From assembly GCA_027022065.1 (NCBI GenBank), contig JALVZS010000151.1:1-24033 (forward strand): a DNA stretch of 24,033 bases. The letters are read 5' to 3'. Below, piece by piece: positions 4,074 through 23,746 of this stretch. The DNA is from a bacterium. Lineage in GTDB: Bacteria; Thermosulfidibacterota; Thermosulfidibacteria; Thermosulfidibacterales; Thermosulfidibacteraceae. Position numbers and translations under genes: made by a program. Position 1 is the stretch's first letter, and each line of letters starts with the position of its first letter. The notes under the pieces are model-generated. The model had not been told where the DNA came from and made no database searches. It saw only the letters and a program-made list of their open reading frames with translations.

Positions 4074-4107
4074 TATCAAATAATAGGTGGGGGACCAAGC
4101 CCCCACC
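4074..4107 (-). terminator. Intrinsic terminator after the ETF oxidoreductase gene
   Basis: On the minus strand a perfect 8-bp stem, GGTGGGGG/CCCCCACC, closes a 6-nt loop (4094-4099) and is followed by a T-rich run (TATTATTTGAT). It begins 16 nt beyond the stop at 4124, so it probably ends the beta-oxidation/ETF transcript. The T tract is interrupted, so termination may be partial and could let some transcript through into the PAS sensor gene, for which I see no convincing promoter. Confidence 0.65.
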
Positions 4108-4123
4108 CAGTTTTTCAAAAATA

Positions 4124-6130
4124 CTACTCCATGGCTTCCCTTACAATCTCAGCGATGTCCTTGAGCTGGATCTCCTCTTCCTTGCCCTTGTTCTTGAGTC
4201 CATCGTCAAACATGGTGAGGCAGAAGGGGCATGCGGTAACTATAAGCTCCGCACCTGTGTTTATGGCTTCTTCTGTCCTTTCAACATTTATGCGCTTTCC
4301 AATAGTCTCCTCAAGCCACATCCTACCGCCACCTGCACCACAGCAGAAAGAAATCTCCCTGTTCCTTGGCATCTCCAAGAGTTTTTCAGCAGGCACCACA
4401 TTGGCAAGAACCTTTCTGGGCTCATCAAATATGCCGTTGTGCCTGCCAAGGTAACAGCTATCGTGGTAAACCGTTTTAAGGGCTAGGCCCTTCTTGAGCT
4501 TTATCCTGCCCTCGTTTATGAGCCTCAGGATAAACTCGGTGTGGTGCCATACCTCGCCTTCCCAGCCGTACTGAGGATACTCGTGCTTAAGAACATGGTA
4601 TCCGTGGGGACAGGCAACGATAACCTTCTTCACATTGTAGGACTTAAGAAGCTCCACATTCTCCATCGCCAGCATCTCAAACAGGTACTCATTCCCTAAC
4701 CTTCTTGCAGAATCACCGCAGCATTTCTCTTCGGTTCCCAGTATGGCGAAGTCAACACCGGCAGCCTTTAGGATCTCCACCAGGGCCTTCATGACCTTCT
4801 TGTAGCGATCATCATAAGCTCCAGCACATCCAACCCAGAGCAGATATTCAGCCTCACCCTTTTCTGACATAAGTGGAATATCCAATCCTTCTGCCCAATC
4901 AGCCCTTGCAGCAAATCCAACGCCCCAGGGGTTGAAGTTGTTCTCCATGTTCCTGAAGGCAAGCCCCATCTCCTCGGGGATATCTCCCTCCATAAGGGCA
5001 AGGTAACGCCTGAGCTGTATAATCTTCTGAGGATGCTCATTCCTCGTGGGGCATATATGCAGACAGGCTCCACAGGTAGTGCATGCCCATATGGCATCCT
5101 TGTCCAAAAGCCTACCAACAAGAGGCTCAACCCCCTCTATCTCCTCTTCTGGTGAGGGCTTCTGCCCATCCTTCATAGCGGCCATGATTTTAGGAGCATC
5201 CTCAAGTAGAATTTCCCTCAGGTCCTGTATCATCTTTCCAGGCTTGAGAGGTTTTCCTGTTTTGTTTGCAGGACACAGATCCGTGCACCTGTTGCAGTAT
5301 GTACAGGCATAGGTATCAAGCAGATCCTTCCAGGAAAACTGATCTACCCTATTTACACCAAAGAACTCCGTATTCTCAAAGTCCATCCTGAACTGCTTAA
5401 ATCCCTCAAGGTTCTGTAGATAAATGTTGGGCCAGCTCGCTATGATGTGCAGGTGCTTTGAGTAAAGAAGAAGGGGCAAGAATACCAAAAGTATGGCGGT
5501 GTGGAGGAACCAGCATGTTGCGTAAAGCGCGTGAGCCCCTGTCTCGGTTGACGGGCCAAAGATTCCGAGAAGCAAGCTTGATATGGGCCTTAAAGCCTCG
5601 TGTCCAAGTCTAAGCTCTCCCATGTTCATACCGAAGAAGGTTATCACAACGCCCATTATAAGTCCCAGTATAACAGGGGCATCCCAGTGGTTTTCTACCC
5701 TCTCCGGCTTAACCACATAGCGCCTTATGAGAGCCGCTATAATGGCAATAAAAACGCCTGCTGCAAAGAAGTCCTGTAGAAGGGTCAAAAGACCATAAAG
5801 GAAGCTTCCTAAAAAGGCAAAGGAAAAGTGGGGAAATATTATCCTCAAAACCGCCTCAACCGCAGTGGGGAACAGAAGCATAAAGCCCCAAAAGATAACC
5901 GTGTGCATTATACCCACAGCGGTATAGGGACGCTTTCTGCTACATATCTGGGCGAAGATGTACTTTAAGGTCTCCTTTATCCTGAAATCCCTATTGGAGG
6001 TCCTGTCCATAGGATCCTTTTCACAGATTTGAAGATAAGAGATGAGCTCCTTCGCCCTTCTCACAAACACATAAGCGGAGCCAACCGCCAGTATCGCCAG
6101 GATCACCCTAAGTATCACAAGGCTCTCCAT
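4124..6130 (-). CDS. Membrane ETF:(mena)quinone oxidoreductase, NarI-like plus HdrD-like Fe-S domains (EMO type)
   Basis: The 668-residue protein fuses a cytochrome-b/NarI-like membrane domain to an HdrD/GlpC-like Fe-S domain. Members beside etfBA in fatty-acid-oxidising anaerobes pass electrons from reduced ETF to menaquinone. About five membrane segments lie between residues 2 and 235. Histidines that could bind heme include those in MHTVIF, the ATCWFLHT stretch and KHLH. Two 4Fe-4S motifs follow: C276/C279/C282/C286 and C350/C353/C356/C360. Two CCG domains come next, with C435, C470/C471 and C507, then C559, C596/C597, C634 and C637. The start is set by a GGGAGGTG site 5 nt before ATG 6130; a longer reading to 6166 would run into the terminator stem upstream. 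Gene order after etfA supports the role. The quinone type is inferred. Confidence 0.88.
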
Positions 6131-6135
6131 CACAC

Positions 6136-6143
6136 CACCTCCC
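6136..6143 (-). promoter_or_regulatory. Strong ribosome binding site that fixes the oxidoreductase start
   Basis: On the minus strand GGGAGGTG lies 5 nt before the ATG at 6130. It sits just past the T tract of the etfA terminator. It therefore favours the 668-residue product over the longer in-frame reading, whose extra codons would come from the terminator hairpin. Confidence 0.75.
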
Positions 6144-6144
6144 G

Positions 6145-6178
6145 TGTAAAATAAAACCGGGGTCAAAAGACCCCGGTT
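6145..6178 (-). terminator. Perfect intrinsic terminator between etfA and the ETF oxidoreductase gene
   Basis: On the minus strand the arms AACCGGGGTC and GACCCCGGTT (6169-6178 and 6155-6164) form a perfect 10-bp stem with a TTTT loop. TTATTTTA follows directly. It starts 29 nt after the etfA stop. Only 14 nt separate the T tract from the next start codon, so there is little room for a new promoter. The downstream gene must then depend on read-through or on a promoter inside etfA. Confidence 0.85.
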
Positions 6179-6207: not shown

Positions 6208-7188
6208 TTAGGCCTGTCCTTTCTCCTTCTTTATCCTCTCAATAAGAACAGGCACCACCTTGAACAGATCCCCAACAATACCAAAGTCGGCCACATTGAA
6301 TATGGGAGCATCGGGATCCTTGTTAATGGCAACGATGTACTTGGAGGAGGACATCCCAGCAAGGTGCTGGATAGCACCAGATATACCCACAGCGATGTAG
6401 AGCTTGGGTGAAACAGTTTTACCAGTCTGCCCAACCTGATCGGACTGGGGCCTCCAACCAGCATCAACGGCAGCACGAGAAGCACCCACAGCGGCACCAA
6501 GGAGATCCGCAAGCTCCTCAAGCATGGCAAAGTTCTCAGGCCCTTTCATTCCACGACCACCAGAAACGATGATCTCCGCCTCGGTAAGCTCAGGCCTGCC
6601 AGTGGACTTTATGTTAAACTCCTTCATAACCATCTTCTTCTCGGCATCTGTAGGCTCAAAAGGTATGTTCTCCACCTCCGCCTTTTTGCTGGTATCGGGC
6701 TCTGCAATGGGGAAGGCATTGGGCCTTATGGAGATCATCTTAATAGGAGACTTGAAGCCTATTTCAACTATGACCTTACCAGAGATGGCAGGCCTTATGG
6801 CAACAATGTTGTCTCCATCAATCCTGTAACCTGTGCAGTCAGGGGCTATTCCTGCACCCACCCTTGCAGCAACCCTGGGAAGAAGGTCTCTTCCCGTCTG
6901 GGTTCCTCCCATGAGCACCACCTTGGGCTGTTTCTCCTTAACGAGATCTCCAATCACTCTGGCATAGGCCATGGGGTGGTAGTACTTGAGGAAAGGATTG
7001 TCCACCACATAGACCTTGTCCGCACCATAAGAGGCTATCTCATCGGCAAGGGAACCAATCCCCTCACCTATTATTACGGCCTCCATGGAGCATCCAAGCT
7101 CATCGGCCATCTTCCTTCCAAGGCTCAGGGCCTCTTTTGCAGGCTTTCTAAGCTCTCTGTCTCTCTGCTCTGCTATGACAAATACCAT
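6208..7188 (-). CDS. etfA: Electron transfer flavoprotein alpha subunit
   Basis: EtfA binds the electron-carrying FAD of the soluble ETF heterodimer, which takes electrons from acyl-CoA dehydrogenase. The 326-residue length is normal. The N-terminal ETF domain covers about 1-190. The C-terminal FAD-binding domain covers about 200-320, with [12 protein letters not shown] (209-220), [11 protein letters not shown] (235-245), [20 protein letters not shown] (251-270) and the signature around [18 protein letters not shown] (274-291). The ATG has an AAGGAGGTG site and lies 12 nt after the etfB stop, so the two subunits are co-translated. A strong terminator follows the gene. I could not decide from sequence whether this ETF is bifurcating. 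The neighbouring quinone oxidoreductase argues for a simple electron-delivery role. Confidence 0.97.
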
Positions 7189-7200
7189 GGCTTCACCTCC

Positions 7201-7995
7201 TTAAAGCACCTTGGCTTCTTCTTTGAGGAACTTGATGAGCTCCTCCACCACCTCTTCAGGCTCACCCTCAACCTTTCTTCCCGCCTGCCTTGCAGGAGGC
7301 AGCTCGTACTTGAGAACCTCTGTGAAGGAGCCTGCCTTGCCTACGGTGCCGGCATCAATACCGAGATCGGCAAGGGTGTACTTGTTTATGGGTTTCCTCT
7401 TAGCCTTCATGATGTTAGGAAGTGAGGGGTATCTGGGTTCGTTGAGACCCTTTCTTCCCGCAAAAACAGCAGGAAGCTCTACTTCAAACACCTCCTCACC
7501 GCCTTCAACCATTCTGACGGCAACCGCCTTATTACCATCAATGTCAAGCTTCACTATGTTGCACACAGATGGAATCCCCAACATTTCCGCAACCATGCTG
7601 GGAACGGTCCAGGTATCACCGTCAATGGCCCTCTGCCCGAACATCAAAAGCTGGAAGGTATCTAGTCCCCCCTCTTTCTTAAGAGCCTCTACCAAAACCT
7701 TGGCAGTGGCATAGGCATCCGAACCATCCAAGGAATCATCCTCAATGTGAACGCCTCTGTCGGCTCCCATGGCCAGAGCAGACCTTATGGCTTCTTGTGC
7801 CCTTGCAGGCCCCATGCTTACAACCACTATCTCATCAACTATCCCTGCCTCTTTTTTCCTTACTGCCTCCTCAACCGCAAACTCATCATAGGGGTTGAGG
7901 ATGTACTTTATCTCGCTTTTGTCCAGCCTATCACCCGCAAGCTTCACACGGGTCTCGGTGTCAGGAACACTCTTCACGAAGCATATCGCCTTCAT
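7201..7995 (-). CDS. etfB: Electron transfer flavoprotein beta subunit
   Basis: EtfB is the partner of EtfA in the ETF dimer and usually carries a second nucleotide or flavin. The 264-residue protein shows the family blocks GPARAQEAIRSALAMGADR (62-80), GQRAIDGDT (120-128) and NEPRYPSLPNIMKA (185-198). The ATG has an AAGGAGGTGAGG site. A sigma-70 promoter lies 47-75 nt upstream. A FadR-like operator sits between that promoter and the ribosome site, so etfBA can be switched apart from the genes before it. The acyl-CoA dehydrogenase gene ends 82 nt upstream, the longest gap inside the cluster. Confidence 0.97.
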   Translation of the reverse strand: MKAICFVKSVPDTETRVKLAGDRLDKSEIKYILNPYDEFAVEEAVRKKEAGIVDEIVVVSMGPARAQEAIRSALAMGADRGVHIEDDSLDGSDAYATAKVLVEALKKEGGLDTFQLLMFGQRAIDGDTWTVPSMVAEMLGIPSVCNIVKLDIDGNKAVAVRMVEGGEEVFEVELPAVFAGRKGLNEPRYPSLPNIMKAKRKPINKYTLADLGIDAGTVGKAGSFTEVLKYELPPARQAGRKVEGEPEEVVEELIKFLKEEAKVL

Positions 7996-8011
7996 AACCT
8001 CACCTCCTTAG

Positions 8012-8029
8012 TGAATGAGTATTCATTCA
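8012..8029. promoter_or_regulatory. FadR-type (TetR family) operator palindrome upstream of etfB
   Basis: The minus strand reads TGAATGAATACTCATTCA, a perfect inverted repeat with 7-bp arms around a 4-bp spacer. As I recall it, the Bacillus FadR operator consensus is TGAATGAMTANTCATTCA, and every position fits. FadR is a TetR-family repressor of fatty-acid oxidation genes that is released by long-chain acyl-CoA. The site lies just downstream of the predicted transcript start and upstream of the etfB ribosome site, a position suited to repression. No TetR-family gene lies in this window, so the regulator would be encoded elsewhere. Confidence 0.75.
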
Positions 8030-8030
8030 T

Positions 8031-8045
8031 TAACCCTAAGGGTTA
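8031..8045. promoter_or_regulatory. Second palindrome overlapping the etfB -10 element
   Basis: The minus strand reads TAACCCTTAGGGTTA, a perfect palindrome around one central base. It overlaps the -10 box (8042-8047) and the expected transcript start, and it adjoins the FadR-like box with one base between them. It has no T tract of terminator type. A related CCCTTTAGGG occurs before the XRE-cupin regulator gene, so it may be an operator for that protein. That link is inference. Confidence 0.45.
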
Positions 8046-8070
8046 TACATACACCAAAAGCCGTTGTCAA
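8042..8070 (-). promoter_or_regulatory. Sigma-70-type promoter for etfBA
   Basis: On the minus strand TTGACA (8065-8070) is a perfect -35 box. It is separated by exactly 17 nt from TATAAC (8042-8047), which matches the -10 consensus at five of six bases. The predicted transcript start is near 8035, giving a leader of about 40 nt that holds the FadR-like box and the ribosome site. This is the best promoter in the window. Confidence 0.8.
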
Positions 8071-8077
8071 CCTAAAA

Positions 8078-9226
8078 TCACATCTCCTTAAGCAACGCCC
8101 TCGCTATAGTAAGGCGCTGGGCCTCTGCAGTTCCCTCGTATATCTCTGTAATCTTGGCATCTCTGTAGTGGCGCTCCACATCGTAATCCGTGGTGTATCC
8201 GTATCCACCGTGCACCTGTATCGCTTCCCTTGTGACTTTCATGGCCACATCTGAAGCGAAAAGCTTGGCCATGGCAGAAAGTTTGTAGAAACTGGGAATA
8301 CCCTGATCTTTTAACCATGCCGCCTTTAGGTAGAGCAGCCTTGCGGCCTCAATAAGTGTGGCCATATCTGCCAGTTTGAACTGTATGGCCTGGAAGTTGG
8401 CTATGGGCTGTCCAAACTGGACCCTTGTCTTTGCAAACTCCACGGCCTCCTCAAAGGCAGCCTGCGCAATGCCCACAGCCTGCGCAGCAATACCTATTCT
8501 TCCGCCATCGTAGCAGTACATAGCAATGTAGAAGCCCTGACCCTCTTCACCCAGGCGATTTTCAGCAGGGATCTTGCAGTCCTCAAACACAAGCTCTCCT
8601 GTGGATGAGCCCCTTATACCCAGCTTGTGCTCATATTTGGTTATCTCAAAGCCAGGGATGCCCTTCTCCACGATGAATGCGCTCATACCCTTGTGCTTCT
8701 TCTCCTTATCGGTCATGGCAAACACGAGGAATATGTCAGCCTCCCTGGCATTGGTGATAAAGTGCTTTGTGCCGTTGAGGATGTAGTAATCACCATCCCT
8801 TTTCGCCGTGGTGGATATGCTGGTAACATCCGTCCCAGCCCCCGGCTCTGTCATGGCATGGGCACCTATCTTTTCCCCCTTGGCCAGGGGAACCAGGAAT
8901 TTCTTTTTCTGCTCCTCGGTCCCGTACTTCAGTATGGGATCAACAACAAGGGATGTATGTGCGGAAACAAGCACCCCCGTTGAGGCACAGGCACGAGAAA
9001 GCTCCTCCACAACCATGGAATAGGCCACATAGTTCAAACCAGAGCCACCGTATTCCTCAGGCACATGAATGCCCATAAGACCAAGTTCTGCAAGCTGCTT
9101 GATGATCTCCTGGGGAATCTCACACTTCTCATCTATCTCCTTGGCCCTGGGCTTTACCTGCTCCTCTGAAAACCTTCTAACCATATCCCTCAACATTTTT
9201 TGCTCTTCAGTAAGCTCAAAGTTCAT
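8078..9226 (-). CDS. Acyl-CoA dehydrogenase (probably short-chain/butyryl-CoA type)
   Basis: This FAD enzyme oxidises acyl-CoA to trans-2-enoyl-CoA and passes electrons to ETF. The 382-residue length is typical of the short- and medium-chain group. Seen are YGGSGL (59-64), signature 1 [14 protein letters not shown] (121-134) and the C-terminal signature around [20 protein letters not shown]. The catalytic base is E364 in [13 protein letters not shown], the position used by butyryl-CoA dehydrogenases. An AAGGAGGG site precedes the ATG. The start overlaps the 3' end of the crotonase gene by 11 nt. etfBA lies directly downstream, as expected for its electron acceptor. Chain length preference is inferred from similarity and context only. 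Confidence 0.93.
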
Positions 9227-9959
9227 GGCACTCCCTCCTTAAAAATTTTGGTTCCCTCTTTTCAAAAAAGGCTCTTATGCCTTCTCTTTTGTCCTCTGTA
9301 CCAAAGGCAAAGCTAAACATCTCCCTTTCCAAGGATAGACCGGCCTCCAAAGAGAGATCCACAGATGCGTTTATTATCCTCTTCGTCATCACCTGCGCAG
9401 TCTGGGAAAGCTTTAATACCTTAGGAAGAACCTCTCCACTAACAAACTTCTCCATTTCTTCTCTGTCTTCAAATATACGGGCTATAAATCCCTGTAGCTC
9501 CTCTGCTCCAACATCTCCCATAAAAAACAGCTTTTTTGCCCTAGACAGCCCCAAGTCCCTAACAGCCCTTTGAATACCGCCAAATAGAGGAATGAATTTT
9601 TCATCAACACCAAAAACGGATGATTTCGTGGCGTAAACCAAATCACAGAGAAAGAGAAACTCAAGACAGCTGTTCAGACAAATTCCATCAACCTGTGCCA
9701 CAGTTATAAATGGAATATCTTCAAACTCACAGGCGTATTTATGAGCCTTTTTAAGCAGGGCCATATCGGGATGCTGCAAATACCAGCTATTATTACCAAA
9801 TAGCCTAAAGATTAAAACCTTTTGGCTACAAGAAAGCTCATCAAACAAAAAAGGAAACAGCTCATCCAACACCCAGGAAATATCCTTTTGATAAAGGGGG
9901 AAGACTATAAAGCCTTCCCCCTCTGTGTACTCCAACTCACTTCTTCTCCGTGTAGTCAT
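9216..9959 (-). CDS. Divergent crotonase (enoyl-CoA hydratase/isomerase superfamily)
   Basis: The 247-residue protein has a recognisable crotonase core and sits in the operon slot of enoyl-CoA hydratase. Numbered from ATG 9959, E100 and E120 lie exactly 20 residues apart and match the two catalytic glutamates of classic hydratases. The C-terminal pattern [17 protein letters not shown] is also normal. However, the usual LGGGCE oxyanion-hole segment reads LNSCLE, and the AGADL-type segment reads LQHPDM. Its function is therefore uncertain: an altered hydratase, another crotonase reaction, or a non-catalytic partner. The start is unclear. ATG 9959 overlaps hbd by 23 nt. TTG 9935 just after the hbd stop has a GGAG about 10 nt upstream. 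A further ATG at 9998 is less likely. Confidence 0.78.
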
Positions 9960-10806
9960 AGAAGCCCCTGCCCGTCTTCCTTCCAAGGTAGCCAGCATCC
10001 ACCATCTTCACAAGCAACGGACAAGGTCTGTATTTGGGATCACCAAAAGCCTCGTACATGACATTGAGGATATACAGGCAGGTGTCCAGCCCAATGAGAT
10101 CCGCCAGGGCTAAAGGCCCCATGGGGTGGTTCATCCCGAGTTTCATAATAGTATCAATGTCCTCAGGTGAACCTACTCCCTCATAGAGGGCAAATATGGC
10201 CTCATTTATCATGGGCATAAGGACTCTATTGGACACAAAACCCGGGGAGTCATTGATAACCACAGGAACTTTGCCCAGCTTCTCGGAAAGCTTAACCACG
10301 AGATCTGCCGTTTCATCCGTGGTCTGAAGGCCCTTTATGACCTCTATGAGCTTCATAACGGGAACAGGATTCATAAAGTGCATGCCAATCACCTTCTCCG
10401 GCCTGCTGGTCCAGGAGGCTATCTTGGTTATGGATATGGATGATGTGTTGGTGGCCAGGATCACCTCTGGCCTCACTATCTTGTCAACCGCCTCAAACAC
10501 CTCCTTCTTAACATCCTCAAGTTCCACCACTGCCTCAATGAAGAAGTCCACATCGGCAAAGTCTTCAAGGTTTGTGGTTCCCTTGATACGGCCCATTATT
10601 GCCTTTTTGTCATCCTCGGTAATCTTTCCTTTAGAAACGGCCCTGTTCAGGTTCTTCTCTATCATGGATATACCACGATTGAGGGCCTCCTCATTAATCT
10701 CCCTCACTATAACCTCATATCCCGCCTGGGCACAGACCTGGGCAATCCCATGGCCCATGGTACCTGCGCCGCAAACGCCTATCTTTTTGATGTCCTCTAG
10801 CTTCAT
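9937..10806 (-). CDS. hbd: 3-hydroxybutyryl-CoA (3-hydroxyacyl-CoA) dehydrogenase
   Basis: The enzyme interconverts 3-hydroxyacyl-CoA and 3-oxoacyl-CoA with NAD(P). The 289-residue single-function form is typical of butyrate-type pathways. The Rossmann motif GVCGAGTMGHGIA lies at 10-22. Catalytic residues aligned on the family are S122, H143 (GMHFMNP), E155 and N193 (GFVSNR). The C-terminal domain contains NHPMGPLALADLIGLDT (226-242). The ATG at 10806 is chosen because AAGGGAGGG lies just before it and the Rossmann fold begins right after it. A longer in-frame reading to 10833 would overlap the thiolase gene. The thiolase stop is 13 nt upstream. Confidence 0.95.
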   Translation of the reverse strand: MKLEDIKKIGVCGAGTMGHGIAQVCAQAGYEVIVREINEEALNRGISMIEKNLNRAVSKGKITEDDKKAIMGRIKGTTNLEDFADVDFFIEAVVELEDVKKEVFEAVDKIVRPEVILATNTSSISITKIASWTSRPEKVIGMHFMNPVPVMKLIEVIKGLQTTDETADLVVKLSEKLGKVPVVINDSPGFVSNRVLMPMINEAIFALYEGVGSPEDIDTIMKLGMNHPMGPLALADLIGLDTCLYILNVMYEAFGDPKYRPCPLLVKMVDAGYLGRKTGRGFYDYTEKK

Positions 10807-12019: not shown

Positions 12020-12604
12020 TTACTCAACCTTCAAAACAACTGCCAAAAACTTGGTGCCCCTTTTGCCCTCAATATAATGGGGCACCCTGGAATCGTAATA
12101 GACAGAATCTCCAGACTCCAGCTCAAGCTCCGTATTGCCCAGAACCAGTTTGAGATTACCTTCCAGTATGTAAAGAAACTCCTCCCCCTCATGGGAAATG
12201 GGAACCATTCCCTTCTCATCCTTATCAAGCACCACCAAAAAGGGATCCATCTTCCTGTTGAACTTTCCAAAGGCCAGTGAGTAAAAGGTAACATTGGGAT
12301 ATGTTTCCCTTCTGGACACGGGTTTTCCCTGCCCTTTTCTAACAAGGGTATAGTCCACCCCCTCCTCAGGCGTCTCTTGAAAAAAGTAGCCTATCTTTAC
12401 CTCCAAAGCCTCTGCAATCTTCCAAAGGGTTGATATGGGAGGGGAAACCACGTTGTTCTCAATCTGAGAAAGAAGAGCGGTGGAAAACCCCGTTATCTTT
12501 GATAGATCCTTTAGGGTATAACCCTTCTTAAGTCTCAGCTCCCTGATCTTGCCCCCTATATTCAGTTCTTTAAGTACTTCAGACGCTTCCCTTTTTCTCC
12601 TCAC
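12020..12604 (-). CDS. XRE-family transcriptional regulator with C-terminal cupin domain
   Basis: The 194-residue protein has an HTH_3 domain (about 17-71: KIRELRLKKGYTLKDLSKIT with FSTALLSQIENN) and a cupin_2 sensor domain (about 122-193). Cupin residues H138, E142, G149, P175 and H176 are present, but the second His of the first motif is Gly, so metal binding is doubtful. Proteins of this layout regulate neighbouring metabolic genes in response to small ligands. Placement as first gene of the beta-oxidation cluster, 21 nt before the thiolase gene, suggests it controls that operon. The start is GTG with a GGGGAG site about 4 nt upstream. The ligand is unknown. Confidence 0.88.
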   Translation of the reverse strand: MRRKREASEVLKELNIGGKIRELRLKKGYTLKDLSKITGFSTALLSQIENNVVSPPISTLWKIAEALEVKIGYFFQETPEEGVDYTLVRKGQGKPVSRRETYPNVTFYSLAFGKFNRKMDPFLVVLDKDEKGMVPISHEGEEFLYILEGNLKLVLGNTELELESGDSVYYDSRVPHYIEGKRGTKFLAVVLKVE

Positions 12605-13538: not shown

Positions 13539-14516
13539 TTACTCTCTAAGTTTTTCTATTTTTACGGCTTTCCTGCCCCTCTTTGCCCCCACCCTTGCCA
13601 GAAACTTGGGAACACCACCCACAAGAACGGGAAGAAGACTGTCAACAAAGGTATCAAGCCTTATAACATCCCCCTCCTCCAGCTCCAGTATATCTCCCAC
13701 AGTGAGCACCACAGTGCCCAAAATCCCCTCAACCTCTACAACAGTTTCCTCCACATGCTCTCTAACCCTGCGCCTGTCCTCCTCGGACACCTCTCTGGTG
13801 CCCGTGAACATTTCAATACCCAAATTGGAGCTTATGGGCTCAAGGGCTATGGCGGGGATGCAGAGGTTCATCATACCCTTAACTTCGCCGATTCTTATCT
13901 CAAAGGTTATAAGAACCACCACTTCGTTGGGGGCAACTATCTGGATAAGGTGGGGGCTTGACTCCTTCACCTCAACCACAAACTCCACATCCTCTATAAC
14001 ATCCTCCCACACCTTCTCCAGCTCATCTAAAGCTCTGTTGACCACACCATCCATGAGGTCCATCTCAAGATCCGTTAGGGGCCTTACCTCCTCCACAGGT
14101 TCCCCTGGACCACCCAGAAGCCTATCTATGATGGGGAACACAAGGGCGGGATTAATCTCCAGGGCAAATTTAGCCTCAAGCGGATAAACCCCCAAAACAC
14201 AAAAGAAGGTGGGATCAGGAAGCGCCATGAGGAACTCTGAATAGGTTATCTGCTCAATGGAGGTAAGCTCCACCTCAACTATGCTTCTAAGGTAAGTGGA
14301 AAGAACAGATGAGAAGTTCCTCGCAAATCTATCGTGCAGAAACTGTAGAAACCTAATCTGATCCTTGGATATCCTATCGGGCCTTTTGAAGTTGTAGGGA
14401 ACTGCAGTCTTCTGCGGCGTAAATTTTTCAGGAAGCGTATCAAAGTCCAGCTCCTCACCCTGCTGAAGGGCTGCAAGAAGTGCGTCAACCTCTTCCTGGG
14501 TGAGTATTTCCGCCAT
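13539..14516 (-). CDS. fliM: Flagellar motor switch protein FliM
   Basis: FliM is the middle part of the C-ring rotor that binds CheY-P and reverses rotation. The 325-residue length is normal. The N-terminal CheY-P-binding helix ILTQEEVDALLAAL (4-17) is present. The CheC-like middle domain spans about 45-235 with LLGGPGEP (133-140). The C-terminal SpoA domain spans about 255-322. The ATG lies 3 nt after the cheB stop, and fliY starts 4 nt after the fliM stop. No damage is seen. Confidence 0.96.
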   Translation of the reverse strand: MAEILTQEEVDALLAALQQGEELDFDTLPEKFTPQKTAVPYNFKRPDRISKDQIRFLQFLHDRFARNFSSVLSTYLRSIVEVELTSIEQITYSEFLMALPDPTFFCVLGVYPLEAKFALEINPALVFPIIDRLLGGPGEPVEEVRPLTDLEMDLMDGVVNRALDELEKVWEDVIEDVEFVVEVKESSPHLIQIVAPNEVVVLITFEIRIGEVKGMMNLCIPAIALEPISSNLGIEMFTGTREVSEEDRRRVREHVEETVVEVEGILGTVVLTVGDILELEEGDVIRLDTFVDSLLPVLVGGVPKFLARVGAKRGRKAVKIEKLRE

Positions 14517-14519
14517 GGC

Positions 14520-15596
14520 TTACCCCAAAACCAGCTTTGACACTATTACAGGTATATTATCTATTGAAGCTACATAGTCTGCAAGCCCCTTCTCAACAAC
14601 ACATCTAGGCATGCCGTACACTACACAGGACTGTTCATCCTCGGCAACCATAACCCCGCCTGCTCCTTTTATCTTTTTCGCCCCCTTACAGCCATCGGAA
14701 CCCATACCTGTAAGTATTACTCCCACCGTTGCACCACCACAGCAGGCTGCCACAGACTCGTAAAGTATATCTACGCTAGGCTTGTAGATAATCTTAGGCG
14801 GGGAATCCACAACCTTTATAACCCTCCTACCCCCTTCCCTTACCACCATCATCTGCTTGCCGCCTGGTGCTATATAGGCATACCCGTCCCTGACAGGCTC
14901 TCCGTTTTCCGCTTCCTTCACTGTGAGATGGCTCATGGAGTTAAGCCTCTCCGCCAGAAGCCCTGTAAACAAAGGTGGCATGTGTTGAGCCACCACCACA
15001 GGAAGGTTGAACCGCTTATCTAAAGAAGAAAAGAGCTTCTGAAGGGCAGGAGGACCACCTGTGGAAGAGCCCACAGCCACGATTTCAGCGTGAACCCTCT
15101 TTATCTCCTTATGCTCCCTCAAAGCAGGCCTTGATGTGACAGAAGGAGTGGGCTTCCTCCAGAACTCCATCGCCCTTTTTACAGAGCCCACTTTTCCCTT
15201 GGCGTTTTTCACCTTGCTTATAAGCTCTTCCTCCAGGTTGTAGAAGTGAAGAAGCCCCTTCTCCACACCCTTGGGAATAAAGTCTATGGCACCAAGCTCC
15301 AAAGCCTTTAAAGTAACCTCTGCCCCGTCCTTCGTAAGGGCACTTACCATAATAACAGGCGTGGGCTTTTTCTCCATAATCTCCTTAAGGGCTTCAAGTC
15401 CATCCTTTCTTGGCATCTCCACATCAAGGGTCACCACATCGGGAGAAAGCTCCAAAACCTTCTCAACCGCCTCCTCCCCGTCTTTGGCGAAGCCCACAAC
15501 CTCAATCTCTGGATCCTTCTGGAGAATGCGGGCAATAGCCCTTCTAAAAAACGGCGAATCATCAACCACTAACACCCTAATTTTGCCCAACCTCAT
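14520..15596 (-). CDS. cheB: Chemotaxis response regulator protein-glutamate methylesterase CheB
   Basis: CheB removes methyl groups from, and deamidates, chemoreceptors once phosphorylated by CheA. The 358-residue protein has a receiver domain (about 5-125) with D12/D13, phospho-acceptor D58 (VTLDVEMPRKDG) and K109. After a linker comes the methylesterase domain (about 168-356) with the Ser-His-Asp triad S178 (GSSTGG), H205 (AQHMP) and D301 (GMGSDG). It overlaps the end of fliA by 20 nt and precedes fliM by 3 nt. It is the only adaptation gene here; cheR, cheA, cheW and receptors are not in the window. Confidence 0.96.
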   Translation of the reverse strand: MRLGKIRVLVVDDSPFFRRAIARILQKDPEIEVVGFAKDGEEAVEKVLELSPDVVTLDVEMPRKDGLEALKEIMEKKPTPVIMVSALTKDGAEVTLKALELGAIDFIPKGVEKGLLHFYNLEEELISKVKNAKGKVGSVKRAMEFWRKPTPSVTSRPALREHKEIKRVHAEIVAVGSSTGGPPALQKLFSSLDKRFNLPVVVAQHMPPLFTGLLAERLNSMSHLTVKEAENGEPVRDGYAYIAPGGKQMMVVREGGRRVIKVVDSPPKIIYKPSVDILYESVAACCGGATVGVILTGMGSDGCKGAKKIKGAGGVMVAEDEQSCVVYGMPRCVVEKGLADYVASIDNIPVIVSKLVLG

Positions 15597-16302
15597 ATCC
15601 CCTCTCTCTCAAAATTTTTCTTATTCTCCTTATGGCCCGCCAGTGTATCTGGCAAACCCTGGCTTCGCTTATGTTCAGTATACTACCTATCTCCTTAAAT
15701 GTAAAACCCTCGGTGTAATATAGAGAAAGCACCAACTTTTCTCTTTCCGGAAGCATTTCTATGGCCCTAACCAGCTCTTGAAAAAATTCGTTCTGCTCAA
15801 GAAAGTAGGGAGGATCCCTGTCGTCTTCAAGCACAGAAAGCAAGGTATACTCGTCAACCCCTTCTATAACAGGATCCGATAGGCTCTTAACAGTGGAGTT
15901 TATAGAGTGCATCATCACATCCATTATCTCGCTTTCGTCCTTAACATCCATCTTCTCCATTAGCTCTTCCAGACTGGGTTCCCTTCCAAGCTCAAGGGCA
16001 AGCTCGTTCCATGCACTCTCAAGCTCCTTCACCTTTTTTCTTTTGTTTCTGGGGAGAAGATCCAGAGAGCGAAGATAATCCAATATAGCTCCCCTTATCT
16101 TTATCTCGGCAAACTTTGAGAAGCTCTCCTTTTTAGCAGGATCATATTTATTTACAGCATCCACAAGCCCTAAGTAGCCGTAACCCATGAGGTCTTCCAA
16201 CTCAACACTAGCTGGAAGCCTCTGCTTTATCCTCATGGCCACCTTCGCCACCAGCGGCATCATCTCCTCTATGAGCCTCTCCCTCTCCTTCTCCTGAACC
16301 AT
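15577..16302 (-). CDS. fliA: Flagellar sigma factor FliA (sigma-28)
   Basis: FliA directs RNA polymerase to late flagellar and chemotaxis genes. The 241-residue form has region 2 (about 17-83, with ELEDLMGYGYLGLVDAV and FAEIKIRGAILDYLRSLD), region 3 (about 88-160) and region 4 (about 180-232, with FTFKEIGSILNISEARVCQI as the HTH). ATG 16302 is chosen because GGGAG lies about 7 nt before it and the conserved part begins soon after. The open frame runs further upstream without family similarity. Even so, its first 95 nt overlap the small membrane-protein gene in another frame. No FlgM anti-sigma gene is nearby. Confidence 0.95.
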   Translation of the reverse strand: MVQEKERERLIEEMMPLVAKVAMRIKQRLPASVELEDLMGYGYLGLVDAVNKYDPAKKESFSKFAEIKIRGAILDYLRSLDLLPRNKRKKVKELESAWNELALELGREPSLEELMEKMDVKDESEIMDVMMHSINSTVKSLSDPVIEGVDEYTLLSVLEDDRDPPYFLEQNEFFQELVRAIEMLPEREKLVLSLYYTEGFTFKEIGSILNISEARVCQIHWRAIRRIRKILRERGYEVGQN

Positions 16303-16549
16303 TGCCCGTCTCCCAGGGCTTAGTAATAGCAAACAGCATACCAAAAAAGCCCACGAAGAAGCCAAAAAGAGCGGTCAGCACAACCTTTCCCATAACTACC
16401 CATGGATCGCTCTCCGTGTAGTAAAACACCACAAAAGAGATGCAAAAGGCCAAGATTCCGGAAATAACGCCTATCTTTAATGAGCTATTTCTGGTATCTG
16501 GATCTTTGAGGATCTCTTCAGCAACCCTATCCAGATCCAGCTGTTGCAC
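16208..16549 (-). CDS. Small two-helix membrane protein between flhG and fliA
   Basis: The 113-residue protein is not a family I can name. It has a charged N-terminus and two membrane segments (about 27-45 and 51-75), the second rich in Gly and Phe. The tail (about 80-113) is rich in Gly, Glu and Asp. The tail is encoded within the 95-nt overlap with fliA, so its composition may be dictated by the fliA frame. The GTG start has an AGAGGT site and overlaps the flhG 3' end by 23 nt. The position between flhG and fliA suggests a role in flagellar placement or assembly, but this is only guilt by association. Confidence 0.65.
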
Positions 16550-17381
16550 CTCTAAACCTCAGAAATCCCATGACGAGACGGGAAAGCCCCATGCTACCTC
16601 TAGTAAATATATTCCCGTCAGCTATCCTGTCTATCAAAGGGGAAAATACACCTTTCAGCTTATCCACCCCCTCAACACTCTGCTCCCTTATAAGGGATGT
16701 AACCGCTGAACTTCTCTTTATGGAACCCAGGTTTTTTATCTTAACCTCTGGGATGAATCTGCCCACAACAGCTTCAAGATATCTGAAAACAGAGGTGCCC
16801 TCCTCACCCTCAACCATATTTGCCACCACAAAGAACTCCTTGAGGGCATACTCCTTGTAAAGGCTCTTTATAAGAGCATAAGCATCCGTTAAAGATGTGG
16901 GTTCAGGAGTTACCACGACCAAAACATCCTGGCAGGAAACGCAGAACATAAGCACCTCATCCGATATACCTGCTGCTGTATCTGCAACAACGTAGTCCAC
17001 CATGCCGTCAAGCTTCAAAAGCTCAAGGGCAATCCTTTTTCTCATTTCATGATCCATAGATAAAAGCTCCCTTATGCCAGATCCTCCGGGAAGCACCCAG
17101 AAACCTTCCTTTACCTTCACCAAAACATCCTCAAGAGGAGCCTCTCCCTTGGCTATGTGATACAGGTTCTTATCGGCAGAAAGCCCTAACATAATATCCA
17201 CATTGGCAAGCCCCAGATCCCCATCTATAAGGCAAACCTTAAAGCCCCTATCCGACAGGAACTTGGATATAGCTATTGCTATGGTGGTTTTTCCCACACC
17301 GCCCTTACCGCTGGTTACAGCCACTGTGGCAACGGGATGCTTTACTTGAGCTATCCTCTTAAGAAGAGCCGCCTGCGTCAC
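16527..17381 (-). CDS. flhG: Flagellar number regulator FlhG (MinD/ParA-type ATPase)
   Basis: FlhG limits flagellar number and stimulates the FlhF GTPase. The 284-residue protein has a deviant Walker [10 protein letters not shown] (25-33), a Walker A' region [16 protein letters not shown] (51-66) and the switch D134 (VVADTAAG). The N-terminal [10 protein letters not shown] resembles the DQAxxLR motif that activates FlhF. A C-terminal amphipathic segment (about 264-278, [12 protein letters not shown]) resembles the MinD-type membrane-targeting helix. The GTG start forms a GTGA overlap with the flhF stop and has a GGAGGAG site. The 3' end overlaps the small membrane-protein gene by 23 nt. Confidence 0.95.
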
Positions 17382-18505
17382 TGAGACTCCTCCAGGATGT
17401 AAGATGCCATGCGCCTGGCATCTGCTTCCTCTATATCCTCAGGAACCCTCTGGCCCGTGGTTACAAAAAGTATTGGCACATCCATATACCATGAAAGATT
17501 TACGGGAAGCCCATAAACCTCTGCCTCATCCAGCTTTGTCAGGATAAATCCATCAGGCTTTTTTGTTGAGAAACCCTCAACAACCTTCACAGCCTCTTTA
17601 AACCTCAAATTATAGGGCAGCAGTATCAGAAGCACATAGTCTTCAACCCTCCCCACAAAGGCCATCATCTCCTCAAGCCTTACCGTATCCTTGTGGGACC
17701 TCCCCGCGGTATCAACCAGAATAATATTGTCCTTCAGCACCTCCACCACCTTCTCAAACTCCTCCGGCGTGTCCGCCGTGTAGAAGTCCAGTCCCAGTAT
17801 ATCCGCGTATGTTTTAAGCTGATCCACCGCCCCTATCCTGTAGGTGTCTATACTCACAACGCTTACCCTCTTGCCCTCAAAGAGCTTTAAGATAGACGCC
17901 AGCTTTGCCAAAGTTGTGGTTTTCCCCACCCCAGGTGGACCAGAAAAGATAACGGGAACCCCCTCCTTAGGAGCGAAAGATGCTGTCTTTATGATCTTTG
18001 AAAGGACCTCCTCGCAAACAGCTCTAGGAGGAAGAAGCTCCTCCTCAGCAACTTTACTCATAACAAATCCTATGACTTTGTCATCAAGCTCCATCTCCTT
18101 AAGGCGATTGTAAACAGGAAGAAGCTCCTCATCCAAGCCTGCAAAGGGGATAGAAACCCCCTGAATAAGGCTCTTAACCGCCGCTATCTCCTTCTTAAGC
18201 TCATCAAGCTCCTTTTGCCTTTCAACCTGCCTGTAGATGATCTTTTTAAGCTCCTCTATCTCAACAAGAAGCCTGTCTATCTGCCCCTTTTCTTCCTCGG
18301 GTTCAGGTGGAGCCTCCTTAACGGCTTCAATGAGATCTATCTTCTTCCTAGGCTCCTCATCTATTGATATATCTGTTGCAGCAAGCACCTCCACTCCGCT
18401 GTCAAGCCTCTTGGTGGAAAGTATTATTGCATCCTCCCCCAAAGTCTCCTTTATCTTCAGCATGACCTCCCTTATGCTGTTTCCCTTAAACTTCCTTATC
18501 TTCAC
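17378..18505 (-). CDS. flhF: Flagellar placement SRP-type GTPase FlhF
   Basis: FlhF sets the site of flagellum assembly, usually a cell pole. The 375-residue protein has a basic/charged N-terminal B region with a helix rich in Glu and Lys (about 70-115). The N domain and the G domain follow. GTPase motifs are GPPGVGKT (189-196), DTYR (220-223), DTAG (265-268) and TKLD (323-326), the usual SRP-GTPase set. The GTG start forms a GTGA overlap with the flhA stop. Together with flhG directly downstream it suggests polar flagella. Confidence 0.96.
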
Positions 18506-20553
18506 TTAATCACCCCAACCACCTTCACCTTTACATCGGGAGGTATCTCAAGATTTGAAAGAACAGGGATTCTGGGAAGGACCCTCTCTATGAACTTCCT
18601 AAAAGCAGGTCTCAGCTCGTAGGATGTTACTATTACGGGCTGTATCCCCTCTTTAAGAGGGGCATCCAAAGCGGCACTGATCTTTCCCGCAAGCTCCTGG
18701 ATCTTATCCTGAGGAAGCACGAGGAAAGAGCCCTTATCTGTCCTTCTCACGTTCTCTATAAGCTCCTTCTCAAGGGCAGGGTCTATGGTAACAACAGGAA
18801 GAACCTCTGCTCCCGCGAGAAACTGATTCACTATTTGCCTGCCAAGGGCTTGCCTAACATACTCGGTAATGAGCTCGGCATCTTCTATCTTTCCAGCGTA
18901 TTCTGCAACGGTCTCAAGTATCTTCTTTAGGTTCCTTATGGATACACCCTCTTTAAGCAGATTCTGCAGCACTTTCTGAAGCAGGGCAGGAGAAACCACA
19001 TCGGGAACGAGATCCTCCACAAGCTTGGGATAGCTTTTTGAAAGGGCATCCAGAAGATCATTTAGCTCGTCCCTTCCCAGAAGCTCATGGGCATGCCTCT
19101 TTATAACCTCAGAAAGATGCGTAATGATAACGGTTGCGGCATCAACAACGGTATGCCCTTCCACAACCGCCTTCTCCTTATTCTCCTCGTTCACCCAAAC
19201 GGCAGGAATCCCAAAGGCAGGCTCCGTGGTCTTTATACCCTCAACCTTAGGCTCCTCAGGACCAGAGGGGATCACGAGATACATATCCACATAAACCTCT
19301 CCCTCCGCCACCTCCATCCCGTAGATGAGTATCTTGTATTTATTAGGCTCAAGGGCCAGATTATCCCTCACCCTAACAGGTGGCACAATAAATCCCATCT
19401 CCTGAGCGATCTGCCTCCTCATGGAGCGTATCCTGTTTATCAGGTCCCCCTTCTCCACAAGGGGTATGAGGTTGTATCCCAGCTCCAGCTCTATGGGATC
19501 TATCTGCAGAGAGGTCTTTATCCTCTCTATGTCTGCTTCAGGCGTTTCTTCAGCCTCCTCTTCCTTCTCCTCTTTTACAATCTCGCGTCTGCTTCCCATG
19601 TAGCCCAGTGTTGCCAAAACTGCGGCAAGCGCCACAAAGGGGATGAAGGGAAAGCCTGGAACCAAGCCGGCAAAAAAGAGGATGCCAGATGCGAAAAACA
19701 ACGCCCTAGGATAGGAGGTGAGCTGCTTCAGTATGTCCATACCTAAGTGGGACTCAGAGGCAGCCCTTGAAACCAGAATACCCGCAGCGGTGGAGATGAT
19801 GAGAGCCGGAATCTGGCTCACCAGACCATCTCCTATGGTCAGTATGGTGTAGGTCTTTGCAGCCTGTGACACGGGCATACCGTGCTGAACCACACCTATT
19901 ATGAGACCGCCAACGATGTTTATGAAAGTTATTATAAGGCCCGCCACCGCATCGCCTCTGACAAACTTAGACGCTCCGTCCATGGCGCCGTAAAAGTCCG
20001 CCTCCCTCTGGATCTCCTCCCTGCGCCTTCTCGCCTCCGCTTCGTCAATGAGCCCTGCGTTTAGGTCGGCATCTATGGCCATCTGCTTTCCAGGCATGGC
20101 GTCCAAGGTAAAGCGGGCCGCAACCTCTGCAATCCTCTGGGAACCCTTGGTTATAACCACAAAGTTTATAACCACCAGAATGAGAAATATCACAAAACCA
20201 ACCACATAGTTTCCGCCAACCACAAACTGGCCAAAGGCCTCTATGATGTGTCCTGCCGCCGCCGTTCCCTTGTTTCCGAAAAGCAGTATCCTCCTTGTGC
20301 TGGCCACATTAAGGGAAAGACGGAACAGGGTAAGCACAAGAAGCAGTGAGGGAAAGGATGAGAACTCAAGGGGCCTCTTCATGTAAACCGTGGAGAGCAG
20401 AACCAGAACGGACATGCTTATGTTCGTCGCTATGAGCACATCCATGAGCCAGGCGGGTATAGGAAGCACCATAACGGTGAGGATGAGGATTACGCCAAAA
20501 GCAACACCAAATTCACTTATGAGATCCCTTCTATTTAGGGCTATCTCCCTCAT
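18502..20553 (-). CDS. flhA: Flagellar export gate protein FlhA
   Basis: FlhA is the large membrane subunit of the flagellar type III export gate and docks substrate-chaperone complexes. The 683-residue length is normal. The N-terminal half (about 15-320) holds about eight membrane segments. A cytoplasmic loop contains the FHIPEP signature region (about 147-170: [20 protein letters not shown]) and D201 in [10 protein letters not shown] charged, Glu-rich linker (about 322-345) leads to the C-terminal cytoplasmic domain. The ATG overlaps the flhB stop as ATGA. Confidence 0.97.
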
Positions 20554-21599
20554 CAGGCAGCCTTACCCTTTTGCCTGTAAACGTAGGCTAAAACCTCTGC
20601 AACCGCTTTATAAAGGGCCTCCGGTATCTCCTCCCCCACCTCCACCATCTTGTAAAGCATACGGGCAAGCGCCCTGTTCTCAACTATTGGAACCCCGTGC
20701 TTTTTGGCAATCTCCCTTATCCTTTTAGCAAGCTCACCTGCCCCCTTTGCCACCACTATGGGGGCATCCATCCTTTCTGCATCATACTTTAAGGCAACCG
20801 CAATCTCAACAGGATTGGTGATCACCACATCCGCCTTGGGCACCTCCTGCATCATCCTCCTTCTGGCAAGCTCCCTCTGGATGCGCCTTATCCTTGCCTT
20901 GACCTGGGGATCTCCCTCCTGCTGCTTAAGCTCCTCCTTAACCTCCTCCTTGGTCATTTTCAGACTCTGCTCGTACTCCCACTTCTGAAACCCGTAATCC
21001 AAGATAGAAAGAAATAGAAAGAGCATCCCCACCTTAAAAACTAAAACGGCAGCAGTCTTAAATATATGAGCAAAAAAGGGCCCTGGCTCGTATGAAAAGA
21101 GCTGAGGAGCAATAAGGATTTCCTTCTTTATAATAGGATAAACCACGGCAAACACAAAGACAAATTTAACAGCCGCCTTGGCAAGCTCTACAAAGGCCTT
21201 TTTTGAGAAAAGGTTTTTTAGGCCATTTATAGGGTTTAAGAAGTCAAACTTGGGAGTAAAGACCTCCGTTGTGAATAGAAAGCCGAACTGTATCACATAG
21301 CTGAAGATGGAAACCGCAACAAGCAAAATGAACAGCGGCAAAAGTAGTTTAGCAAGGACATAAAGCACAACCATTAGGGTCTGCTGGCGTACCTCTGAAG
21401 AGTATGCATTACCTAGGAAGTAAACAAAGAGATCTCCGAAGGTTCTGTATACACTGCGGTAGGTAAAGTAAAAAAACAGAAGGGAAAATAAAAGCAGCAA
21501 AGTTGAGGAAAGCTCTCTGGTCTTTGCAACCTCCCCCCTTCTTCTCGCCTCTTCCCTTCGCCGTGGCGTTGGCTCTTCAGTTCTATCTTCTGCACCCAT
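20553..21599 (-). CDS. flhB: Flagellar export switch protein FlhB, with NPVE at the cleavage site
   Basis: FlhB is the export-gate protein that switches substrate class from rod/hook to filament after self-cleavage. The 348-residue protein starts with the typical [17 protein letters not shown] segment and has four membrane segments (about 33-205). The cytoplasmic domain contains [17 protein letters not shown]. The self-cleavage motif, normally NPTH, here reads N262-P263-V264-E265. Asn and Pro at the cut are kept, while Thr and His are replaced. The rest of the domain ([20 protein letters not shown], and [16 protein letters not shown] at the end) is normal. It lies 3 nt after fliR. Confidence 0.95.
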
Positions 21600-21602
21600 G
21601 CC

Positions 21603-22370
21603 TTAACCACCCATCAGCTTTATAACCTCATAAAGATTCCTCTTCATAAACAAAAACTCTCGCCCGAATAAAAAGGTCATGCCCTTGAGGGAAAACATAA
21701 GCAGTATCAGTCCTATGAAGATCTGTATGGGAAATCCTACCATAAAGATGTTCATCTGAGGAATGACCCTTGCTACAATGGCCATGGCTATCTGGATGAG
21801 GAAAAGAACCGCAAAAATGGGAGCATTCACCTTTATGGCAATAACGAAAATTGTTTTTAAAAGTCTAACCACAAAAACGCTCCACTTGACACCAAGAGAA
21901 AGCACCCCCAATGGAAAGACCTTTAAGGAATCAAAGTATGCAGACATGAACCACAGGTGCCCCCTTATGGCTAGAAAGACCAAGACAGCAACTATGTTCT
22001 CAAAATACGATATAAGAGGAACAGCGGTCTCCTCCTGAGGATTCATTATATTCACCACAGCCATACCCATCATGTAGCCTATGTACTGCCCCCCCAGTTG
22101 TATCCCGTCAAAGACAAATCTAGCAGTCATACCTACTACCACCCCAAAGAGAAGCTCTCTTAGAACAACAAGCACAAGTTCTGTGGGTCCTTTGGGAAAG
22201 GCTACACTAACAGGATAGGACATACCCATATAGGCCAGAAAAAGGGCCAGTCCCGCCTTCGCCATGGCAGGAACATTTCTGCTTCCGATAACGGGAACAA
22301 AAAAGACCAGAAAAGAAGCCCTCAAAAACAACAGCAGAAACTTGTAAAAAATGGCAAGGTCAACCGTCAT
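21603..22370 (-). CDS. fliR: Flagellar export gate protein FliR
   Basis: FliR is a membrane subunit of the export-gate channel formed with FliP and FliQ. The 255-residue protein consists mostly of hydrophobic segments. It has the family-like pattern [20 protein letters not shown] near the middle and [20 protein letters not shown] towards the end. The ATG overlaps the fliQ stop as ATGA, which fits the usual fliP-fliQ-fliR-flhB order. Confidence 0.95.
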
Positions 22371-22636
22371 CGGATAAAGCTGGGTATGTTACCGTAAAGC
22401 TGCAGGGTGAAGTTCACCAGCATCCTAATCATCCACGGACCGAGAACCACAAGGACAATTGCAGCCACTATCATCTTGGGAACAAATGTAATGGTCATCT
22501 CCTGTATCTGGGTTGCAGCCTGCAGTATGCTTATAAGCACACCCACAACCATGGTGGCTATAAGGACTGGAGCAGCCAGCATAAGAGCCACCTTCATGGC
22601 AGCAATGGATATCTCAATAACCGTTGCTTGGCTCAT
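22367..22636 (-). CDS. fliQ: Flagellar export gate protein FliQ
   Basis: FliQ is a small gate subunit with two membrane helices. The 89-residue length is exactly in the normal range. Conserved blocks are [25 protein letters not shown] (about 22-46, first helix and turn) and [19 protein letters not shown] (about 51-69). Its ATG overlaps the fliP stop as ATGA, and its stop overlaps the fliR start the same way. Confidence 0.96.
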
Positions 22637-23388
22637 ATCCTAAAGCTCCTCACCAATGATGCTATCACAAGGTCCCAGCCATCCACAAGCACAAAGAGAA
22701 TGAGCTTAAAGGGAAGAGATATCATAACGGGGGGTAGCATGATCATACCCATGGCAAGTAGAATACTTGAAACCACCATATCAATAATCAAAAAGGGGAT
22801 GAATATCATAAAGCCTATCTCAAAGGCCGTTTGAAGCTCACTGGTAATAAATGCAGGAATAAGCACATGCGTTGGCACATCGGCCCTGTTTCTCGGCCTT
22901 ATCTTTGCAAGATTGCAGAACAAAGCCAAGTTCCTTTCCCTCACCTGGTTGAACATAAAGTCTCTCACAGGCTTTAGGGCTCTATCGTAGGCTTCTTTGA
23001 AGGTTATTTTACCTTCAAGGTAGGGAGAAACGGCATTGTAGTAAACCTTATTCCATGTAGGGCTCATAACAAATACCGTTAAAAACAGAGCAAGTCCTAT
23101 AAGCACTTGGTTTGGGGGCATCTGCTGGGTTCCAAGGGCAGAACGCAAAAGGGATAAAACCACAATTATCCGAGTGAAGGAGGTAACCATCACCAAGATG
23201 GACGGGGCAAGGGAAATAATGGTTATCAGAAGTATAATCTCCAGAGTAACAGCAACGTCCCTAGGAGACTTGGACGCACCAACTCCTATAGTTAGCTTGG
23301 GAATGGGAACCTCAGCGGCCCAAAGGGGAAGCTCTATAAGAATAAAAACCGCTATGAAGCTACATATTCTCCTCAAGAACCTTGGCAA
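22633..23388 (-). CDS. fliP: Flagellar export gate protein FliP
   Basis: FliP forms the core of the export-gate pore. With the chosen start it has 251 residues: an N-terminal signal peptide ([14 protein letters not shown] then ELPLWA-A), a periplasmic stretch and four membrane segments. The family signatures [20 protein letters not shown] and [20 protein letters not shown] are intact. The start is uncertain. The frame stays open to a GTG at 23439, deep inside fliO. TTG 23388 has AGGAG just before it and gives a good signal peptide. TTG 23376 is another option. The chosen start overlaps fliO by 29 nt. Confidence 0.9.
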
Positions 23389-23746
23389 AGCTCTCCTCTT
23401 CAAGGTCTTTTGGATCAAGCTCGGATATAAGCTGAACACTTCCCTCCGTTATCCCAACAAGAAACAAGCGCCTTCCCGCTTTGATTATGGCAAATCCCCA
23501 CTTACCCATAACCGTGGCAAACTCCACCACCTCTATGTGCTTTTTCCTCACAAAGGGAACGCTTCCCATCCGTATCTTTCTGAACACATAGGCAAAGATA
23601 AAGATTATTAAAAGGACAACCGCAAGGGCAAGGACAACCTTTATGGAGTAAGCCCAAAGGGACGGCACTTCCACCCTCGGCACCGCCCTTCCCTTCGCCT
23701 GGGCAAGTAGCTTGATGAACCAGAACTCACTCCTTAACGGGAACAA
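23360..23746 (-). CDS. fliO: Flagellar biosynthetic protein FliO
   Basis: FliO is a small membrane protein that helps assemble FliP in the export gate. The 128-residue protein has one membrane segment (about 34-55). A basic cytoplasmic region follows with a FliO-like beta-rich domain ([20 protein letters not shown] and [17 protein letters not shown]). The start is a TTG overlapping the fliN stop by 20 nt. A good ribosome site is not evident, so the exact N-terminus is doubtful. Its position between fliN and fliP is the classic one. Confidence 0.85.

Follow-up and report, generated by a model that had tools for sequence, protein, structure and literature searches.

In the 24,033-nt stretch of DNA analysed here (the window), the genes for electron transfer flavoprotein (ETF) follow closely on a run of thiolase, hbd, crotonase-like and acyl-CoA dehydrogenase genes, and a perfect palindrome lies in the short gap between them. 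The question raised by this locus is whether the palindrome is an operator and, if so, which regulator recognizes it and whether it gives the ETF genes a control of their own.

The etfB upstream region and its conservation

The gene downstream of the palindrome is etfB, encoding the ETF beta subunit (7201..7995, on the minus strand, as are the other genes, the promoter elements and the candidate operator described in this section; PF01012, 1.4e-41). It is followed by etfA, encoding the alpha subunit (6208..7188; PF01012 and PF00766), and by a gene for an HdrD-like membrane FeS oxidoreductase with CCG domains (4124..6166; PF02754, 1.8e-36, and 4Fe-4S domains), which is presumed to be an ETF:quinone oxidoreductase and, given the conserved gene order, is probably in one operon with etfB-etfA. 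On the other side lies an acyl-CoA dehydrogenase gene (8078..9226; PF00441, PF02771 and PF02770), the final gene of the upstream run and one without the operator directly ahead of it; its stop codon precedes the -35 element of the predicted etfB promoter by 7 nt and the etfB start by 82 nt.

Read on the minus strand, this gap contains TTGACA (-35, 8065..8070), a 17-nt spacer, TATAAC (-10, 8042..8047; predicted start at about 8035), a further 12 nt, the 18-bp candidate FadR operator TGAATGAATACTCATTCA (8012..8029), which is a perfect 7-4-7 palindrome, and finally 16 nt with a strong Shine-Dalgarno region (AAGGAGGTGA, 8001..8010) before the ATG at 7995. The promoter and palindrome of the initial annotation were confirmed in sequence and coordinates, and its 12-nt distance from TATAAC to the palindrome is exact. 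The predicted promoter matches 11 of the 12 bases of the sigma-70 consensus; it went unlisted in the promoter scan because the scan demands the final T of the -10 element, which TATAAC lacks. TGAATGAATACTCATTCA agrees without mismatch with the pattern TGAATGANTANTCATTCA, of the form TGAATGA-N4-TCATTCA, and is the sole match in the window at up to three mismatches, 0.15 being expected from shuffles. The same window scan found no FadR-type site for the thiolase-hbd-crotonase-dehydrogenase run, so ETF could be raised separately from that run. A second palindrome, AACCCTAAGGGTT (8032-8044), overlaps the -10 element and was rejected as another operator, being unique in the genome and unconserved in sister loci.

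Our sample of the phylum comprised nine genomes, all from one order, eight of which have an orthologous etfB. All eight carry the site 16-23 nt ahead of the ATG, with 0 to 3 mismatches, and none was found ahead of any paralogous etfB locus of these genomes. When the upstream DNA of the orthologs was aligned, the main invariant blocks were the operator half-sites and the Shine-Dalgarno sequence. The order acyl-CoA dehydrogenase-site-etfB-etfA-FeS oxidoreductase is kept in the seven genomes whose contigs are long enough to show it, and in most of them thiolase and hbd lie upstream. A site held before etfB in 8/8 genomes, and between the dehydrogenase gene and etfB-etfA-FeS oxidoreductase in these seven, supports the earlier proposal that etfBA is controlled separately from the upstream genes.

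The arrangement could also be read differently: the promoter-like sequence at 8042-8070 would be weak or unused, and FadR would act mainly as a roadblock to transcripts arriving from the thiolase-hbd-crotonase-dehydrogenase genes. The narrow gap, in which no terminator is listed, would suit such a role, as would the poor conservation of the -10 element, which is weaker in the sister genomes and non-canonical in most. However, the -35 element is TTGACA in seven of the eight genomes (TTTACA in the other) and, despite its non-coding position, mostly stays at one fixed distance to the operator, and the site on contig C17 described below shows, by eye, an equal promoter-operator spacing; we consider it unlikely that the roadblock is the main function. 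With simple repression of the etfB promoter as the preferred reading, bound FadR may in addition hinder read-through, because the dehydrogenase gene ends so near etfB with no terminator listed between them.

Further sites and a FadR-like regulator

The genome is a 1.57-Mb draft, 88% complete, in which the motif was counted genome-wide beside a reversed control pattern. At up to one mismatch there are three sites, versus none for the control, and all three sit at fatty-acid genes or fadR. Besides the etfB site (minus strand), they comprise C17:4696-4713, located 11 nt before an acyl-CoA dehydrogenase gene, and C34:4019-4036, just before a FadR-like TetR gene. By eye, a promoter-like TTTACA-17-TTTAAT precedes the C17 site and stops 12 nt short of it, which reproduces the etfB geometry. 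Matches with three mismatches on C36, C118 and C155 were put down to chance, because the reversed control pattern itself gives two at that level. The initial annotation had suggested looking for other copies of the motif near fatty-acid genes, and the C17 and C34 sites are such copies; the TetR-family regulator that it had placed elsewhere in the genome likewise has a counterpart, a FadR homolog encoded on C34.

This C34 protein has a YsiA-like C-terminal ligand domain (PF08359, 6.5e-28, 98 bits versus a cut-off of 21), a domain that among 14 control genomes occurred only in B. subtilis, together with an N-terminal PF00440 domain (9.4e-10 in the gapped copy). Its best solved relatives are Bacillus FadRs (4e-31 to 2e-29), the next TetR protein scoring 5e-6, and its best family is the NCBIfam FadR equivalog NF053878, with 147.7 bits for the 156-residue fragment and 188.2 for an intact sister protein against a cut-off of 200. 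The copy is fragmentary owing to a 10-N assembly gap in the DNA-binding domain (L003:1582-1591; C34, about 4100-4109), after which the frame is open; because of this gap the recognition helix of the organism's own FadR can be read only in part. The gene heads a same-strand run of fadR, fadN, fadA, fadE, a DUF1571-like gene, fadD and fadL, the products after FadR being a FadN-type fusion of 3-hydroxyacyl-CoA dehydrogenase and enoyl-CoA hydratase, a thiolase, a 590-residue acyl-CoA dehydrogenase, a secreted DUF1571-like protein, an acyl-CoA synthetase and FadL.

Within the order, a site lies ahead of fadR in every genome that shows the gene (this one and 6/6 sisters), and in several of them the operator, judged by eye, borders on the -10 region or extends into it. 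The sister genomes have additional sites ahead of fadE in four cases and ahead of the DUF1571-like gene in four, and across the order the site has four types of target. The FadR gene was not found in the G003 and G008 drafts, although their etfB site is present. G003 has a FadR-type site at an extreme contig end (L173:5-22, G003:C96), as if its fadR gene had fallen into the assembly break there. One match in G007 (C155:5128), close to an acyl-CoA synthetase-like gene, may be due to chance and was excluded.

The motif and FadR beyond the phylum

We collected 80 FadR loci from public genomes, picked by FadR similarity rather than by motif and drawn from Bacillota, Acidobacteriota, Myxococcota, Deltaproteobacteria, KSB1 and others. 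At up to two mismatches the motif numbered 75 in these loci, versus 0.4 when the half-sites of the palindrome were shuffled, and it lay within 400 nt upstream of fadR in 63 of the 80. The Bacillus FadR consensus given in the initial annotation was checked by way of the motif at the Bacillota loci of this set. In a separate sample of 60 genomes, a FadR relative (E-value of about 1e-20 or better) was present in 9/11 motif-positive genomes versus 9/49 others (Fisher P of about 1e-4). Bacillus-type FadR and its operator have thus been retained together in Bacillota, Acidobacteriota, Myxococcota, Deltaproteobacteria, KSB1 and the present lineage.

This pairing bears on whether the palindrome might belong to some other TetR regulator with a different ligand, perhaps an acyl-CoA that is short or branched. 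Examples would be the TetR encoded on C15 or one missing from the draft because of assembly gaps. The draft is incomplete and does contain one further strong TetR, that of C15, and acyl-CoA metabolism is known to have related TetR regulators (PMC5343134, PMC6449355). Against this, a site stands directly before the FadR-like gene here and in all six sisters showing it, and the motif accompanies FadR in several phyla. The C15 protein was rejected as the cognate regulator, as it is not FadR-like, being no nearer FadR than many TetRs are, and its contig holds none of the listed sites; we regard a different TetR as quite improbable. A chance inverted repeat without regulatory role has a negligible likelihood, for although 13 of 100 window shuffles gave at least one match when three mismatches were allowed, this palindrome has none, is conserved in 8/8 genomes and belongs to a set of three genome sites that all lie at fatty-acid genes or fadR.

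Taken together, the site, how many copies there are and which genes they adjoin, the conservation, and a FadR homolog preceded by a site of its own argue for a FadR regulon that includes ETF. The element at 8012..8029 is very probably an operator of the organism's own TetR repressor of the Bacillus FadR/YsiA type, one that would be released by acyl-CoA. A broader reading takes FadR to be an old repressor, shared by many phyla, with an operator that has hardly changed between Bacillota and deep-branching Gram-negatives. On this reading the strictly conserved internal operator of this small phylum would detach ETF and its quinone oxidoreductase from the short-chain module upstream, leaving the ETF level to be set by long-chain fatty acid; we offer this tentatively, leaning slightly towards doubt.

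The predicted regulon and known systems

We infer repression by FadR at these sites and its release by long-chain acyl-CoA from homology to Bacillus; operator binding, the start point and the extent of the operon are likewise predictions. When long-chain acyl-CoA is lacking, a FadR dimer would occupy the palindrome, which spans about +7 to +24 relative to the predicted etfB start, and by simple repression would keep etfB-etfA and the FeS oxidoreductase gene from being transcribed. FadR would also repress its own fadR-fadN-fadA-fadE-DUF1571-like-fadD-fadL run and the second acyl-CoA dehydrogenase gene. Imported fatty acid would be converted by FadD to long-chain acyl-CoA, which would bind FadR and free the operators, and beta-oxidation would then be induced together with its electron outlet, from ETF to quinone. 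Since the 88%-complete draft has one etfB (E < 1e-30) and at least three acyl-CoA dehydrogenases, it is likely that several of these dehydrogenases share one ETF.

Five fad operons of Bacillus, lcfA-fadR-fadB-etfB-etfA among them, are under repression by FadR, which long-chain acyl-CoA (C14-C20) inhibits (PMC4525379). The present system resembles that regulon in its orthologous-looking TetR, in having the same palindromic operator, in apparent autoregulation (here a site before fadR) and in its targets, which include fadN-fadA-fadE-type genes, an acyl-CoA synthetase, acyl-CoA dehydrogenases and etfB-etfA. It differs in that the fadR run includes the outer-membrane protein FadL, that etfBA lies apart from fadR under its own operator and together with the FeS oxidoreductase gene, that the centre of the operator is less constrained, and that a DUF1571-like secreted protein belongs to the regulon. 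A FadR2/etfA5B5/fadF locus of Desulfococcus multivorans, proposed to govern myristate-specific proteins, likewise combines a TetR-type FadR, ETF and a membrane FeS oxidoreductase; however, FadR2 adjoins the ETF genes, whereas here the regulator is on another contig, and the part of that report describing the locus names no operator (PMC5109826). TetR-family control of fatty-acid degradation is also exerted by PsrA and FadP (proteobacterial) and by the Thermus and Sulfolobus FadRs, and it responds to acyl-CoA in the cases studied (PMC5343134, PMC6449355). These are nevertheless regulator lineages separate from Bacillus-type FadR. The sister FadR matches the PDB TetR repressor 3ang, which we take to be the Thermus FadR, at 9e-8 versus 1e-38 for Bacillus FadRs.

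While the FadR-type regulon is known from Bacillus, what appears new is its occurrence in the present lineage, of which we found no description, physiological or otherwise, in the literature. The result is a well-supported predicted fatty-acid degradation regulon for an uncultured phylum, in which ETF supply stands out as a separate point of control and to which an uncharacterised secreted protein is added; and because FadR and its operator are kept as a pair across phyla, the motif can aid in predicting from genome sequence which organisms use fatty acids.

The secreted DUF1571-like protein of the fadR run (L011:10048-10692, C34) has counterparts at L165:1852-2544, L167:1743-2474, L170:1838-2536 and L174:1774-2487, of about 215-240 residues. 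Its Pfam matches are weak and under the cut-off (1.7e-5 to 6e-4), and no PDB relatives of it were found. As its gene has its own FadR-type site in the four sister genomes noted above, it is an uncharacterised core member of the predicted regulon, and perhaps acts in fatty-acid uptake.

Several features of the window upstream of the ETF genes, all on the minus strand, deserve a brief description. The crotonase-like gene of the upstream run (9216-9998) is poorly conserved, its G003 counterpart being 39% identical, and in G002 only about 30 nt, without a crotonase gene, separate hbd from the dehydrogenase gene. Upstream of thiolase, also in G002, is a gene for an XRE-cupin regulator (12020-12604), a candidate for governing the short-chain run, which lacks a FadR site. 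Farther upstream (13539-23746) we recognized, by eye, a long flagellar and chemotaxis run with FliM/FliN-like, CheB-like, FliA, FlhF/FlhG, FlhA/FlhB and FliR/Q/P products, which suggests a motile organism.
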